The notes under the pieces: model-generated
Told to the model about the DNA's origin: nothing
Seen by the model: only the letters and a program-made list of their open reading frames with translations
Database searches by the model: none
Source: a virus
DNA: 31,490 bases
Virus record (IMG/VR): IMGVR_UViG_3300032275_000249
Span: 1-31,490 of that record
Reading direction: 5' to 3' (one strand)
Translations under genes and position numbers: made by a program
In this document: piece by piece, positions 4,363-31,490 of the stretch
How the letters are laid out: each line of letters begins with the position of its first letter
Position numbering within the stretch: position 1 is the stretch's first letter

Positions 4363-4809
4363 TCAGAACGGAAGATCGTCGTCCTCGGACAACGCCGCCG
4401 CCGGCGCGGACTGGTCAGATGCTGACCGATCAACGAGACCCGGAAGGCGGTTGGTCCAACGAACCTGAGTCCGATTCTTGCCCGCGTACTCCGAGGTCTC
4501 CACCACGATCTGAAGCTCCTGACCGAGGAGCACGTGGTTCCGGCTGGTAGCATCGTTTGGCTCAAACGGTGCGTTCCAGCCCACAGCGCGGAGCAGGTTT
4601 GCGGTCACGAACCCGCGTGTCCCTTCCACCGGGTACCAGCCCCGGATCGTGGCGTTGCCGTTGCTGAACGTCACCACGAGCTGATCGCGGCCACCGTCCC
4701 ACTGGACGTCCTCAATCGTGACTCGGTGCTTTCCGTCCGCGATCATGCGGGAGCCGCCACCACCGGACGGTTTGGACTTTTCGGGGAATGCGTTGGGATT
4801 GAATGCCAT
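4363..4809 (-). CDS. SSB-like single-stranded DNA-binding protein (DUF669-type)
   Basis: This 148-aa protein begins MAFNPNAFPEK, carries a glycine-rich loop, then a region with the pattern of a small beta barrel (about residues 22-110) that resembles phage DUF669 proteins, which are thought to bind single-stranded DNA. It ends in an acidic tail closing with DDDLPF, almost the same as the protein-docking tip of bacterial SSB (DDDIPF), through which SSB recruits repair proteins. It follows the ERF annealing protein by five bases. The start at ATG 4809 has AAGGAA upstream; an upstream in-frame extension would overlap ERF and is not protein-like. The SSB role is inferred from the tail and the operon. 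Confidence 0.75.
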   Translation of the reverse strand: MAFNPNAFPEKSKPSGGGGSRMIADGKHRVTIEDVQWDGGRDQLVVTFSNGNATIRGWYPVEGTRGFVTANLLRAVGWNAPFEPNDATSRNHVLLGQELQIVVETSEYAGKNRTQVRWTNRLPGLVDRSASDQSAPAAALSEDDDLPF

Positions 4810-8042: not shown

Positions 8043-9980
8043 GTGATTGATTATCCCGCGCTCTGCGCGCTCTTTGACGCGCCCAGTGCGTCCTCGCTTG
8101 CAGCCTTGAACCTTGACTCCACGGTGGAGTGGGACCGGCTCAACTCGTTCGCTCAGAATCCCAAGCTCCGGAAGTGGCAGAGCGAGGCGCTCCCCGCGGC
8201 GCTCTGCTCCATCTATGCGCGCCGGGCTGGCGTGATCGCGGCCACCACGGGCGCCGGGAAGAGCATCCTTCAAGCGGAGCTGATCCGGCTGTACCTGCTG
8301 GACAACCCAGAAGCCCGCGTGGTGGTCACCGCGCCGTCGATCCGGCTCGTGGACCAGCTGGCCGACACGTTCGCCCAGTGGCTCCCCTCTGGGTGCGTTG
8401 GCAAGTGGTACACGCACGGGAAGCAGGGAGGACGTCAAGTGATCGTAGCATGCAACCCGTCCGCGGTGGCGCTCGCTCAACACCTCGCTGGTCACGGGAT
8501 CGTAGCGGACCTCTGGATCGCGGACGAGTGCCACAAAACCGAGTGCGCCACGTTCGGCGTGGGCGTCAACGTCGACGTGGACCGCGCCGGGTTTCCCAGT
8601 GTGGCCCGTCTGGGCTTCACCGCCACGCCGTTCCGCTCAAGCAACAAGGCCACGATCCAGCTGTTCGACACGGTGACGTACCGGTACCCACCAGCCGAAG
8701 CCATGCGGGACGGCGCCATAGTCGACTTCCAGATCATCCCGTGGGACGAGACCCGGAGCAGCGTGGACACGGACGAGGCGTGCATAACGATGATCCGCGA
8801 GCTCGGACCAGAGCGTGGTCCAGGCGTGGTCAACGCCACCACGATTCAGGACGCGGAGGACTACTGCGCCGTCCTCGAGGCCGCGGGCTTCAAGGCCCGT
8901 CCGCTCCACAGCCGGCTCAACGCTCAGGACAAAGCGGAGACCGTGGAGGCGCTCCGCTCTGGTGGGCTGGACATGATCGTTCATGTATCCATGCTGGTGG
9001 AGGGCGTTGACTTCCCGTGGCTCCGCTGGATCTGTCTGCGCCGGCGCGTTCGGTCCCGCGTCCGCTTCATTCAAGAGGTGGGCCGCGTGCTTCGAGCATC
9101 GCCGGGTAAGACGGTGGCCAAGGTGCTGGACCCCAACGATCTGTTTGGTGAGTTCCAGTTGACCTACGCGGACGCGCTCGGTCTGCTGTTCAATGACGCG
9201 GAGCCGGAGGCGCTTGAGCTCGCCGAGGAGAACGCGGAGGACGCGGAATGCAAAGACAACGAGCGCCCCGCAGAGCAGATCCAAGCGGCGAGGACCACGG
9301 CGTTGGGCCGCTACGTGCGGGAGCTCCGGCTGGCGCTCCTTGCGGAAGGGCTGGCCAAGGACACGAAGCAGCTTGCTGGCCGGCTGTGGCGGGAGCACGC
9401 TCCGAGCGCCAAACAATCCGCGTATCTGGAGAAGCTGAAACCGATGATTCGGGCGGTCTGTCTCGAACATTCTACGGGTCTCCAGCAACTCCTCACATGC
9501 CCGAATCTCACCAAGGGCATAGTCTGCGACATGATCGATATTTTGAGCGGGCTGAAAGACGCCGCCCGCGCCGGGAAGCTCCCGGCTCAATGGCGTCCGA
9601 GCATGGCGATCCGCGTCCCCTGTGCCGATGCGTTCATGCCTGTGTTGGTTCCTCCGGGTCAGCCGGTCCCCGTCTACGTCACCGGCGCCATGAACAAGGA
9701 GAACGCATCCATCGCGCTTGTGCGCCGCGGTGAGGTGCTGTACTCCATGGCTCGAGAGAAGCGGAAAGGGGACACGTGGTCCAGACTCACGGCTAACGCC
9801 ATTCGGTTCGCGGTCAGCCAGTACCAGGCGGAAGAGGTGGCCACGCACGACAAGGACGCGTTCGACGTGTTCAGCGGGCCGGACGGTTGTGACGGCGTGG
9901 GCGTACGGCTGATCAAGCAGAGCGAGAACCCGTCCAGTGGCGCCGCGTGGGGCGCATGCGTCCGGAAAATGACGACATGA
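8043..9980 (+). CDS. Superfamily II DNA helicase (DECH box)
   Basis: The start chosen is GTG 8043, with GGAG at 8033-8036; the frame is open back to 7887 but runs through the hairpins. The 645-aa product has the full SF2 motif set: Walker A ATTGAGKS (67-74), DECH motif II (161-164), TATPF motif III (193-197), a VEGVDFP motif V region, and QEVGRVLR motif VI (344-351). The C-terminal 250 residues are a separate, less conserved region with cysteine and tryptophan residues. Such enzymes unwind or remodel branched DNA in phage replication. It is coupled to the Prim-Pol gene by an ATGA overlap. Confidence 0.9.
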   Translation: MIDYPALCALFDAPSASSLAALNLDSTVEWDRLNSFAQNPKLRKWQSEALPAALCSIYARRAGVIAATTGAGKSILQAELIRLYLLDNPEARVVVTAPSIRLVDQLADTFAQWLPSGCVGKWYTHGKQGGRQVIVACNPSAVALAQHLAGHGIVADLWIADECHKTECATFGVGVNVDVDRAGFPSVARLGFTATPFRSSNKATIQLFDTVTYRYPPAEAMRDGAIVDFQIIPWDETRSSVDTDEACITMIRELGPERGPGVVNATTIQDAEDYCAVLEAAGFKARPLHSRLNAQDKAETVEALRSGGLDMIVHVSMLVEGVDFPWLRWICLRRRVRSRVRFIQEVGRVLRASPGKTVAKVLDPNDLFGEFQLTYADALGLLFNDAEPEALELAEENAEDAECKDNERPAEQIQAARTTALGRYVRELRLALLAEGLAKDTKQLAGRLWREHAPSAKQSAYLEKLKPMIRAVCLEHSTGLQQLLTCPNLTKGIVCDMIDILSGLKDAARAGKLPAQWRPSMAIRVPCADAFMPVLVPPGQPVPVYVTGAMNKENASIALVRRGEVLYSMAREKRKGDTWSRLTANAIRFAVSQYQAEEVATHDKDAFDVFSGPDGCDGVGVRLIKQSENPSSGAAWGACVRKMTT

Positions 9981-12424
9981 GCCAGCTCCTCAAGGTGGCC
10001 AAAGCCTACGTGGCCAAGGGCTGGCGCGTGTTCCCACTGGACGGGAAAGTTCCGTTCGCAAACACCCACGGGCTCCTTGAGGCCACGGTGGACGCGGCGC
10101 AGCTGGACGCGTGGTGGAAGCGCTGGCCAGCGGCCAACATCGGAATCCGGACGGGCGAGCTCGCCGGCGCTGGGTCTGGAATCTGGGTGTTAGATCTGGA
10201 CGCGGACACGGACGCGGAGGAGCGCGTGGAGCTCGCCGCGGCGGGACGTCCCTACCGCGAGACCTTGACCGTTCGGACGGGTGGAGGTGGTCTCCATTTT
10301 GTGTACCGGTTTCCGCTGGAGCTCGCCACGTGGCTGAAGGCCAACAAGCTCCAGCTGCTCACGCGGAACAAGATCGGCGGGAAGGGCTTGGACGTCCGCT
10401 CGGACGGTGGGTACATCGTGGCCGTTCCAAGCGTCCACCCAGATACCGGGCTGGCCTACGCGTGGGCCAACAAGGCGCAGATCGCGGACGCTCCCGACTG
10501 GTTGGTACGGTTCGTGAGCAAGGCAACGGAGGAGCGCCGCGCCGCTCCACCACCACCCAAGGCTGAAGCCGGCGCGGGGTTCGGTGCGGCTGTGCTTCGA
10601 AACGCGGTGGCCAAGATCTCAAGCGCCACGACGGGCGAGCGCCACGGCGTGCTCCTCGCTCAAGCTCGGACGGTGGGCGGGTACCTCGTGAGCGCCGGGA
10701 TCTCAATCCATGACGCGGAGACAGCTTTGATCGCCGCCGGTGAAGGCTGCGGCAAGCCCGGCTCCGAGGTGCGGCGGACAGTGCGGGACGGACTGGGCTA
10801 CGGCCAGAAGCTCCCGCTGTCTGTCCCCGAGCGCCCACAGCTCACGATCATTCGGCCCACACGTTCCGAGTCTGCGCCGCAACTGGACGCCGCGGACGTC
10901 GACATGGAGGAGGAGGCCGTGGCGCTTACGAAACTGGACCAAGGGCGCGAGCTTCTGGCGCGGGCTCTGTCGGTCCTGTACAATGAAGCCACAGCCCGTC
11001 CTCAGCGGCTTGAGCTGGTCCGCGAGCTCACCGGCTCGGTGGACCTGCTGGTGGAGGTGGCTGAGGCCAACGAAGTGGAGTGGACAACGTGGATCGGCGC
11101 CGCCGAAGCTGCGGGCGGGATGGGCGAGCATGTCCGCAACCTGAAACGCTCCGTCAAGGTCAGCCAGGACAAGCTCCGCACCGAGGAGCGCACCGCGAGA
11201 CAAGCCACACGCGGTCAAGCTGTCGGGAAGGAACGGGCGGCGATCATGTCTCGGTTGGCGACCACGGAAGAAGGGAGCGTGAAAACCACGTACGCCAACA
11301 TCGTGACGATCCTCCGCGCTGACCCGCGGTACGCGTCCCTCCGCTGCTCCACACTGGGTGGCGTGGTGGAGGTGGAGGCCGCGGAGCTCGAGGAGGGACC
11401 GGGGACGGCGGACTTGTGCGAGTGGCTACGGGACAGCTACGGGATGGACGCCGGCGAGGTCATGGCAAAGACCGCGCTGTACGCGGTGGCCGCGGGACGC
11501 ATGTACTCGCCGGTGAAAGACTATCTGGAGTCCGTGCGCGGCAAGGCCACAGGAGACACGGTGGGCCAGCTGCTTCGTGACGTGTTGGGGATCACCGAGC
11601 CCACAGAGATGCAAGCGGCCATGGTCGGGCGGTTTCTGATCTCCGCTGTCGCTCGAGCGCTTGAACCGGGATGCAAGGCGGACACCGCGCTGGTCCTTGT
11701 GGGCGAGCAGGGCGCCAAGAAGAGCAGCTTCTTTGAAGGGCTGTTTGGAGAGTTCTTTGGAGACTCCCCGATCCCCATCGGCAACAAGGACGCCGCGATC
11801 ATGATGTCCCGCGTGTGGGGCTACGAAGCCGCGGAGCTCGAGGACTTGACCAGCAAGCGAAGCGCGGAGTCTGTAAAACAGTTCCTTGGCACGCGGAAGG
11901 ATCTGTACCGGCCACCATTCGCCCGGGCGGCGATCCTTCAGCCACGCCACACGGTTCTGTGCGGGAGCGTCAACCCCGTGGGCGGCGCCGGCGGGACCGC
12001 GGCGTTCCTGTCGGACCCAAGCGGCTCGCGGCGGTTCTGGATCCTCACCATTCCGCCCAAACACGTGATCCCGATCCAACGGCTTCGCGAGCTCCGGGAC
12101 GCCGTGTGGGCGGACGCGCTCGAGGCGTACGAAGCCGGTGAGGTCTGGTGGTTCACCCGCGAGGAGGACAAGGTGCGGGAGGAGGACGCCCAGCAGTACC
12201 AGATTGAGGACAGCTGGACCTCCCCGGTGGGCGCATACGTGGAGAACGAGGGCGCGCTGGCCACGTTCAGCACATCGGACGTTCTGAACGCCATAGGGCT
12301 GGACATCGGTCAGCGGACCGCCGCAGCCTCCAGCCGGGTACGGGCGATCCTCGTTCGCATGGGGTGGGTGGAGAAGGCCAGCCCCGCAGGGTTTCGGGGC
12401 TTGCGTGTCTGGCGCAAGGCCTAG
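9977..12424 (+). CDS. Primase-polymerase fused to VirE-type helicase
   Basis: The 815-aa protein has two enzymatic halves. Residues 1-180 are a bifunctional primase/polymerase (PF09250-type) domain: VLDLDAD at 71-77 (catalytic Asp73/Asp75), TGGGGLHFVY at 101-110, and RSDGGYIVAVPSVH at 141-154. Residues about 500-720 are a VirE/D5-like superfamily 3 type ATPase: Walker A GEQGAKKSSF (576-585), acidic motif in YEAAELEDL (616-624), sensor GSVNP (663-667), and DPSGSRRFW (680-688) with the arginine finger. It would prime and unwind the origin. The start overlaps the helicase stop (ATGA), and the stop shares CTAG with the facing gene. Confidence 0.92.
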   Translation: MSQLLKVAKAYVAKGWRVFPLDGKVPFANTHGLLEATVDAAQLDAWWKRWPAANIGIRTGELAGAGSGIWVLDLDADTDAEERVELAAAGRPYRETLTVRTGGGGLHFVYRFPLELATWLKANKLQLLTRNKIGGKGLDVRSDGGYIVAVPSVHPDTGLAYAWANKAQIADAPDWLVRFVSKATEERRAAPPPPKAEAGAGFGAAVLRNAVAKISSATTGERHGVLLAQARTVGGYLVSAGISIHDAETALIAAGEGCGKPGSEVRRTVRDGLGYGQKLPLSVPERPQLTIIRPTRSESAPQLDAADVDMEEEAVALTKLDQGRELLARALSVLYNEATARPQRLELVRELTGSVDLLVEVAEANEVEWTTWIGAAEAAGGMGEHVRNLKRSVKVSQDKLRTEERTARQATRGQAVGKERAAIMSRLATTEEGSVKTTYANIVTILRADPRYASLRCSTLGGVVEVEAAELEEGPGTADLCEWLRDSYGMDAGEVMAKTALYAVAAGRMYSPVKDYLESVRGKATGDTVGQLLRDVLGITEPTEMQAAMVGRFLISAVARALEPGCKADTALVLVGEQGAKKSSFFEGLFGEFFGDSPIPIGNKDAAIMMSRVWGYEAAELEDLTSKRSAESVKQFLGTRKDLYRPPFARAAILQPRHTVLCGSVNPVGGAGGTAAFLSDPSGSRRFWILTIPPKHVIPIQRLRELRDAVWADALEAYEAGEVWWFTREEDKVREEDAQQYQIEDSWTSPVGAYVENEGALATFSTSDVLNAIGLDIGQRTAAASSRVRAILVRMGWVEKASPAGFRGLRVWRKA

Positions 12425-12687
12425 AAAGGCGGCATGTCCGGATCGTCGTCCGCCAGTTCGTCCTCGTCGTCGTCGTCGTTGTCGAGGTCGGGAAGGCCCG
12501 TGTGGAGCAACTGCGGGCGAGGTTCGGGCCGCAGGGCTTCCAGCCCGGGGATCGCGCCGCGGAAGGCCAACCGGACCAGCAGCGTAAGGACTTGCGCTTC
12601 AGCGAGGCCCGACTGGTCGGACATAGCCTTGAGCTCGTGGCGGACCACGGGCTGGAATCGGACGTTGAATCGAGAGTCAGCGGGCAT
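12421..12687 (-). CDS. Probable ribbon-helix-helix DNA-binding protein with acidic tail
   Basis: The 88-aa product begins with a beta strand (RFNVRFQP) followed by a helix, a turn and a second helix (VVRHELKAMSDQSGLAEAQVLTLLVRLAFRG). This is the strand-helix-helix order of CopG/Arc-type proteins, which bind operators as dimers through the strand. The last 30 residues are very acidic (DNDDDDEDELADDDPD) and end MPPF. It is the only minus-strand gene in the 6-31 kb half. It points away from the palindromic array at 12713-12971, whose first unit lies about 35 bp from its ATG. It is therefore the natural candidate to bind that array. Confidence 0.7.
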   Translation of the reverse strand: MPADSRFNVRFQPVVRHELKAMSDQSGLAEAQVLTLLVRLAFRGAIPGLEALRPEPRPQLLHTGLPDLDNDDDDEDELADDDPDMPPF

Positions 12688-12712
12688 GGAGATCCTTCAT
12701 GGTGTTTGGGGT

Positions 12713-12971
12713 GGAGACAACGTATGTACGCTGTACAGACATTGTACCACGGAATGGCGCGGAGTGCGGAGACAACGTATGTACATTGTACAGACATTGG
12801 GACAGGTGGAAAGCGGAGCGCGGAGACAACGTATGTACGGAGTACAGACAATGGACACAGAGCACTGGCGGAAGGCGGATACAACGTATGTACATTGTAC
12901 AGACAATGGACACACGATTGAAACCGCCCGAAGGAGACAACGTATGTACGGAGTACAGACAACGTATGTAC
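12713..12971. repeat. Array of five 19-bp palindromes at about 55-bp spacing, plus a half site
   Basis: The core GTATGTAC-N3-GTACAGAC (dyad GTNTGTAC-N3-GTACANAC) occurs at 12722, 12777, 12831, 12886 and 12942. A left half-site follows at 12964. Spacings are 55, 54, 55, 56 and 22 bp. Each is embedded in a longer conserved unit starting GAGACAACG or GATACAACG and, in four of five, ending CATTG or CAATG. The three central bases are GCT, ATT, GGA, ATT, GGA. Spacing near 5.2 helical turns puts all dyads roughly on the same DNA face. This is typical of an iteron, operator or centromere-like array. No gene is visible here on either strand. Confidence 0.92.
12741..12749 (-). promoter_or_regulatory. 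Possible extended -10 for the RHH gene
   Basis: On the minus strand this reads TGGTACAAT, a good extended -10 (TG-N-TACAAT), with the RHH start about 54 bp downstream and the first palindrome overlapping its downstream side. No -35 at normal spacing was found, so confidence is modest. A promoter here would be covered by a protein bound to the first palindrome, allowing autoregulation. Confidence 0.4.
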
Positions 12972-12992
12972 ACCGAACCGGCGGTGAACACC

Positions 12993-13224
12993 GATCAACA
13001 GAGGGGGGGTACGTAAGTACTCGGAATCATGCGCAACAGATCAACAGACAAAACGTGTTTCTCAACCCCTACAGTCCCGCGGGGGGGGAAAAAGAAAAAC
13101 ACGACTCCCCCGCTACTCCTATACGTGTAAGAAAAACGGTGTTGATCGTGTTGATCACCTTTCAAGCTCCAGAAACCCGTGTTGATCACCGTGTTGATCC
13201 GTGTTGATCGTGTTGATCACCTTT
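12993..13224. repeat. Eight TGTTGATC octamers (two inverted, six direct)
   Basis: GATCAACA occurs inverted at 12993-13000 and 13039-13046. GTGTTGATC occurs directly at 13139, 13148, 13179, 13191, 13201 and 13210, in one case as adjacent pairs. A 24-bp unit made of two octamers and ACCTTT is duplicated exactly at 13139-13162 and 13201-13224. G-runs of 7 and 8 bases (13003-13009, 13081-13088) and an A-rich stretch after the second lie between. The region looks like a second binding array beside the palindromes and runs up to the ribosome site of the gene at 13236. Confidence 0.88.
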
Positions 13225-13235
13225 GGAGGCCGATA

Positions 13236-13517
13236 ATGCAAACCAGACTCTTCCCGCTCACCGCAGAACCGTGGCTGCACGGCAGCGACCTTGAGGAGCT
13301 TCTTCTGGCGTGGGACGCCGCGCCGGGAGACTCGGACCTATTGGCAAGAGTGCGCGCACAGTGCGGACCGACCGACACCGCCAGGGAAGCGCGGGACCAG
13401 CTGGCGCTTCATCGCAGAGAGTGGGCTGTCCGCCGGGCTGCGGTTGACGTAAAGCCGGCCACGGAGTACCCTGACTCACCGCCGGTTGTTGTGCGCGGCC
13501 CTTCGAGGTGCGCGTGA
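13236..13517 (+). CDS. Hypothetical protein, first gene of late operon (93 aa)
   Basis: ATG 13236 has a strong TTGGAGG ribosome site six bases upstream. An in-frame extension to 13179 would run through the octamer repeats and is rejected. The product has a helical middle (LEELLLAWDAAPGDSDLLARV and REARDQLALHRREWAVRR) with a proline-rich end. It precedes the terminase small subunit. No family was recognised; it may be a packaging accessory or regulator. Confidence 0.65.
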   Translation: MQTRLFPLTAEPWLHGSDLEELLLAWDAAPGDSDLLARVRAQCGPTDTAREARDQLALHRREWAVRRAAVDVKPATEYPDSPPVVVRGPSRCA

Positions 13518-30908: not shown

Positions 30909-31490
30909 GCACACCTCGCTACCACGTCCTCCTCGAGCTCCAGTACGCGAGCTCCACCTATCGGATCTCGGACGCGTCTTTTGACGTACCCGACGCGTCC
31001 ACGGGTGACACGCTCACGTTTGAATCCGGGTTTGACAACGTGACCATGCAACAGGCCATGAGCTTTTTGGCTGCGGCGCCGGCGGGAGCGTCTGTCCCGG
31101 TTCAAGCCGTGCTCCCTGTCGACGTGGCACAGCTGTACGCCGAGGGCTGGCACCTCGCCCGCAGCCCGGCCACGCTCGCGGTCTGGCTTGAGGGCACCGA
31201 CTACAGCCAGCGGACCGTCCTAATCAACGGGATCGTGACTGGCCCCAGTTGGCGGTTCGCCGGCGATCCGGTCTCGTTCTCGATCCAGCTCCCGGAGTCC
31301 ACGTACGTGGTGGAGTACCCGCCGCTCACTCAGCAGATCAGCGGAGACACCGTTGGACAGAACACGGTCCTGACTCTGAGCTTGGACGATCTTGGAGTCA
31401 CGTACCCCACCGTGTTTGGCTCGCCGGGTAAGACCGGGAATACCTCGTGGGTACCGGGTACTCAAGGCGTGTGGGCGATTCATCAGGGTG
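30905..31490 (+). CDS. Tail tip / baseplate-type protein, N-terminal part (continues at position 1)
   Basis: The GTG at 30905 overlaps the stop of the 1102-aa gene (GTGA) and has GAGGAGGAG upstream. The frame is open to the window edge and, by the terminal repeat, continues at position 1 to the TGA at 1378-1380; the whole product is 612 aa. The N-terminus (TPRYHVLLELQYASSTYRIS) is a beta-strand region, and the following 120 residues are also beta-rich, as in tail-tip hub domains. Bases 31364-31490 duplicate 1-127, so they should be counted once. The role rests on position. Confidence 0.8.
   Translation, partial: MSTPRYHVLLELQYASSTYRISDASFDVPDASTGDTLTFESGFDNVTMQQAMSFLAAAPAGASVPVQAVLPVDVAQLYAEGWHLARSPATLAVWLEGTDYSQRTVLINGIVTGPSWRFAGDPVSFSIQLPESTYVVEYPPLTQQISGDTVGQNTVLTLSLDDLGVTYPTVFGSPGKTGNTSWVPGTQGVWAIHQG
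31364..31490. repeat. 127-bp terminal direct repeat, right copy
   Basis: Exact copy of 1-127. The coding frame of the 30905 gene passes through it unchanged into the left copy, so joining the ends restores one gene. See the left copy for interpretation. Confidence 0.95.

Follow-up and report, generated by a model that had tools for sequence, protein, structure and literature searches.

A phased array of predicted operator sites that is exchanged, together with the DNA-reading strand of a predicted ribbon-helix-helix protein, among related phages

The array of short repeats described here lies in the window, that is, the whole stretch of 31,490 nucleotides that was analysed. It is rather likely to be the autoregulated operator of the adjacent gene for a predicted ribbon-helix-helix (RHH) protein, with a specificity that is exchanged as a cassette. 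In the proposed mechanism, RHH dimers would bind 9-bp subsites placed every 11 bp, three side by side in each of five units. The gene-proximal unit would cover the −10 box and the start point, by which the protein would repress itself, whereas the other units would build a larger protein-DNA complex next to, but apart from, the repeat region that is likely to be the origin. The array and the DNA-reading strand would form one specificity cassette, the phages swapping the block while keeping the grid. We infer the binding, the autorepression, the cooperativity, and the role of units 2–5. The features are listed in Table 1.

Table 1. Coordinates of the features in the window, with the basis of each assignment
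Feature	Position	Strand	Basis or detail
Primase-polymerase / VapE-like helicase gene	9947..12424	+	Pfam PF09250 (8e-36), PF05272 (1.2e-57)
RHH gene (88 aa)	12421..12687	-	ORF; AF2 model; structure matches; pN/pS
SSB-like C-terminal tip DDDPDMPPF	12424..12450	-	Last seven residues identical in six alleles
Predicted DNA-reading β strand, codons 4–11	12655..12678	-	Alleles; P22 Mnt/Arc alignment
Exchangeable cassette (array, promoter, ribosome-binding site, codons 1–8)	12664..12980	-	Sliding identity, pairwise tables, synonymous saturation; edges approximate (~20 bp)
Operator unit 1	12716..12746	-	Subsites 12738–12746, 12727–12735, 12716–12724
Putative extended −10 box TGG-TACAAT of the RHH gene	12741..12746	-	Inside the first slot of unit 1
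Operator unit 2	12771..12801	-	Subsites 12793–12801 (half), 12782–12790, 12771–12779
Operator unit 3	12825..12855	-	Subsites 12847–12855 (half), 12836–12844, 12825–12833
Operator unit 4	12880..12910	-	Subsites 12902–12910 (half), 12891–12899, 12880–12888
Operator unit 5	12936..12966	-	Subsites 12958–12966 (earlier "half site"), 12947–12955, 12936–12944
Separate conserved repeat region, candidate origin	12990..13224	+	TGTTGATC and GATCAACA copies; conserved in L144

Five exact copies of GTATGTACNNNGTACAGAC occur on the plus strand at 12722, 12777, 12831, 12886, and 12942, in steps of 55, 54, 55, and 56 bp, and a partial sixth copy is located at 12964, 22 bp past the fifth. When up to three mismatches are allowed on both strands, 11 matches are found, all within 12722–12982, against 0.10 expected from shuffled sequences (maximum 2), which bears out the original prediction of palindromes recurring at 54–56 bp. 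Comparable sites were not found elsewhere in the 31,490-nt window. Read on the strand of the RHH gene, the unit consists of three 9-bp subsites with the core AC-NNN-GT at a step of exactly 11 bp, and the whole array (12716–12966) consists of five ~55-bp units with fifteen slots. The 300 bp upstream of the RHH gene contain 12 such cores, with seven pairs at exactly 11 bp (mean 0.03 and maximum 1 in shuffles). In the first slots of units 2–4, the right half (GTC) alone is kept.

The palindrome of 19 bp given in the prediction does repeat, but its limits are not those of the unit, as it comprises the middle subsite plus parts of the neighboring subsites. The supposed sixth half site is an ordinary first slot of unit 5 (22 = 2 × 11). 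The spacing is regular, as was claimed, but the count of 5.2 helical turns on one face is imprecise; since 55 bp is 5 × 11 bp, the constraint looks like an 11-bp lattice. A coding repeat is ruled out: the spacing is not divisible by three, and stop codons occur in these frames among the relatives.

The RHH gene is transcribed away from the array, as predicted. In the AF2 model of its 88-aa product, an extended N-terminus (strand region 5–11) is followed by helices 13–26 and 30–43; the model is a monomer, and the RHH strand pairs only in a dimer. The structure matches are mostly RHH proteins (PutA, CopG, Arc, and NikR), though weak, with a Foldseek E of 0.97 and a Z of 5.6 at best, and the product is a predicted RHH DNA-binding protein on the strength of this model. 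The Pfam RHH models gave no match to the 88-aa protein (E cutoffs of 5 for Pfam-A and 10 for PF01402); such a curated-model match is a diagnostic and does not define the fold. A sequence search of the PDB gave matches to designed armadillo proteins, which were dropped because the fit is limited to residues 43–70 and arises through repetition. Judging from pN/pS values of 0.07–0.40 over codons 9–62, the gene is under purifying selection.

Over the strand and helices, the window allele aligns with P22 Mnt with a score of 43, which is reached by 0.0005 of shuffles (1/2000), and with P22 Arc with a score of 28, which is reached by 0.038 of shuffles. The L128 allele does not align with Arc or Mnt above shuffles. 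Arc and Mnt are phage RHH repressors, and Knight and Sauer are said to have found in 1989 that short N-terminal residues set the operator choice in them. P22 differs in that a single operator is annotated for each of the two, in contrast to the fifteen slots on an 11-bp grid here, and the SSB-like tail and the natural joint exchange of strand and array also distinguish the present protein. From Arc and Mnt, the groove-facing residues of the strand are probably residues 6, 8, and 10.

The RHH protein is encoded by six further viral contigs. As L129 resembles L128 here, the comparison covers six distinct alleles including that of the window, all from one phage group. The grid is kept in all six, which answers a check that had been named beforehand: each has 15 slots, with a step of 11 bp throughout every unit and 54–57 bp from unit to unit. 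The letters of the slots fall into two cassette types, TAC..GT[A/C] (window and L050) and CAC..GTG (L125–L128, type 2). The array and codons 1–8 are 34–48% identical between the types and 75–98% within them, whereas the flanks adjoining them at either end, namely the repeat region and codons 9–60, are 83–97% identical. Between L050 and L128, the sliding identity is 95–100%, falls to 20–60% at about −280 to +20, and is then mostly 90–100%. L050 carries the window-type array, yet its flanks resemble those of L128, and it otherwise groups with L126 and L128; codons 9–60 of the window are nearest to those of L125, whose array is of the other type. The affinities of the flanks thus cross-cut the cassette types, which indicates exchange of the block between lineages. 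Codons 2–8 show saturation of synonymous change, against 0.06–0.33 in codons 9–62, so that recombination is a better account of this end of the gene than point mutation. By these comparisons, a block of ~300 bp comprising the array, the ribosome site, and codons 1–8 is swapped whole among the relatives.

The strand (codons 4–11) reads DSRFNVRF in the window and PATLHVRF or PSTLHVRF in the other type. Arginine 10 is invariant between the types, as is the AC..GT core, while residues 6 and 8 differ (R,N to T,H) in step with a T-to-C change of the flanking base pair. That array and strand are exchanged jointly gives strong comparative support to a reading of the array by the RHH strand. The alleles would then represent a natural specificity swap, with two unrelated ~300-bp operator blocks, each with a matching protein strand, in near-identical flanks. 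As the same 11-bp and ~55-bp grid occurs across the types, the requirements for the grid are separated from those for the letters, and the allele pairs are ready material for studying joint change of an RHH strand and its operator. SmpO of the pWBG749 family is similar in that the first 17 residues of an RHH protein set the DNA specificity and the types cross-cut the phylogeny, but it has two sites within oriT, serves conjugation, and differs by point changes (PMC8136818), whereas a phased array in a phage is exchanged here as a whole block.

The 11-bp/~55-bp grid is confined to the studied phage group among all loci compared. A scan with the type 2 pattern gave the same phage group and eight unrelated single matches. 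A scan of the viral contigs with the pattern GTACNNNGTACN{30,60}GTACNNNGTAC gave more than 100 stretches, and the multi-match contig L067, read in detail, is a repetitive coding region. Neither the RHH protein nor the array plus repeats gave a match when searched in phages and plasmids. On the terminase-ward side (−1800 to −760), identities of 56 to 90% indicate that this side also varies by modules. The region separating the repeats from the terminase genes contains a small ORF (13236–13517) in the window, L128, and L136, and different sequence takes its place in L050 and L125–L127. L140 (1–3227) has a partial terminase large subunit that is 99% identical, with a different left side, and this pattern suggests module exchange at the terminase.

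The position of the first slot of unit 1 is related to autoregulation. In type 2, every slot starts with C except the one corresponding to the proposed −10 box, which keeps TACA[AG]T; all four T's at slot position 1 in this type are in that slot, as a −10 function would predict. A TGGACT is seen by eye 17 bp upstream of the proposed −10 in type 2. A consensus promoter scanner called the proposed −10 of neither type and called one promoter over unit 2 instead. TACAAT in unit 1 is thus a putative −10 box, and its presence in the gene-proximal slot makes autorepression likely. An autoregulatory operator had been one option of the original prediction, and it is well supported by the predicted RHH fold, the overlap with the putative −10 box, and the joint exchange of operator and strand. 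Fifteen slots, however, exceed the need of simple autorepression, which counts against the operator reading. Units 2–5 would most likely act locally, controlling the RHH gene and the neighborhood on its origin side. Interference among relatives that coinfect or are already resident may drive the diversification, as in heteroimmunity or incompatibility.

The replication genes adjoin, as had been claimed: the stop of the RHH gene overlaps that of the primase-helicase gene, whose product is a probable replication initiator. Beyond the array, TGTTGATC occurs as a direct repeat at 13140, 13149, 13180, 13192, 13202, and 13211, and the inverted form GATCAACA occurs at 12993 and 13039. L144, which comes from a Janthinobacterium MAG and has a primase of 67% identity, keeps GTGTTGATC repeats immediately behind the primase stop, with a score of 108.5 against at most 25 in shuffles, and neither the array nor the RHH gene is found there, so that the two are absent together at this place. 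The RHH protein was also not found elsewhere in the L144 genome in a search that had no positive control. Among 399 genomes of the order of the L144 source, 16 including its own have a primase match, and no other is close. From their place after the primase-helicase gene, the GTGTTGATC repeats are likely to be the replication origin; they could alternatively be a packaging site. DnaA boxes were not found, and the cumulative GC skew has its maximum near 15–16 kb and gives no clear origin call.

That the array itself is an iteron origin, as had been suggested, or a packaging site for the adjoining terminase genes is very improbable. It does adjoin the primase-helicase gene, and the gene for the terminase small subunit is ~0.6 kb away, but L144 retains the repeats after its primase gene without the array, and the array is exchanged jointly with the RHH strand, not with the primase or the terminase.

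The exact 127-bp direct terminal repeat (1–127 and 31364–31490), together with a related contig that spans its junction, indicates a complete circular map of 31,363 bp. Neither a tyrosine nor a serine recombinase (integrase) was found in this apparently complete genome, as might suit a phage kept as a plasmid, for which the array would be a centromere-like maintenance site of the RHH ParR/parC type or the single-protein StbA/stbDR type. We consider this quite unlikely. The architecture alone is compatible with the centromere-like option of the original prediction, and the 9-bp subsites with 2-bp gaps around the putative promoter of the RHH gene have the repeat geometry of StbA of R388, a single DNA-binding protein; however, stbDR has two sets of five repeats (PMC3098194) against five sets of three here. 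ParR is an RHH-type protein with repeats near a promoter, 11 bp long in R1, and with divergent specificity types that set plasmid incompatibility without cross-binding (PMC9426499), whereas the units here have three slots at ~55 bp and no partner ATPase is detected. ParA (PF13614) is absent from four records and present in 14 of 14 controls; ParM (PF06406) has no match anywhere, controls included. A relaxase is not among the profile matches of the part of the ORFs that was scanned.

To our knowledge, no published case has this combination of features, and a limited literature search likewise showed none. Precedents exist for its parts: Arc/Mnt, SmpO (PMC8136818), ParR (PMC9426499), and StbA (PMC3098194).

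The C-terminal tail of the RHH protein should also be considered. It is DDDPDMPPF in five alleles and ADDPDMPPF in L127; the final DPDMPPF is constant in all of them despite the varying length of the preceding acidic tract. Its likeness to the docking tip of SSB, DDDIPF in Escherichia coli (PMC5872125), is clear. An acidic tip ending in PF is rare, occurring in 17 of 11,693 ORF segments. Six of these are the RHH alleles; of the remaining eleven, the majority look SSB-like or ssDNA-annealing by inspection, the SSB-like protein of this phage (ending EDDDLPF) among them. This likeness suggests that the tail recruits replication proteins, which would be an unusual route for bringing them to an origin if the tip works. 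The array has the primase-helicase gene to one side and the conserved repeats to the other, and RHH dimers bound to it would then display many tips next to the origin. Replication proteins of host or phage whose usual partner is the tip of SSB would dock there, and autorepression would be a by-product. We regard such a platform as rather unlikely. The six tip-bearing alleles are a single evolutionary observation, acidic tails can serve other roles, and the repeats of L144 without array or RHH gene indicate that the origin can function without the platform. The fuller proposal, that the SSB-tipped protein on its phased array recruits replication proteins to double-stranded DNA and that the cassette is swapped against cross-talk, is tentative and in our judgment unlikely. 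The genome also encodes a 148-aa protein ending in SEDDDLPF (4363–4809, minus strand), directly downstream of an Erf-type annealing gene. PF00436 has no match in this genome, this protein included; with a weak PHROG SSB match (E 0.01) and a low-confidence, mostly β model, it is a probable phage SSB-like protein.
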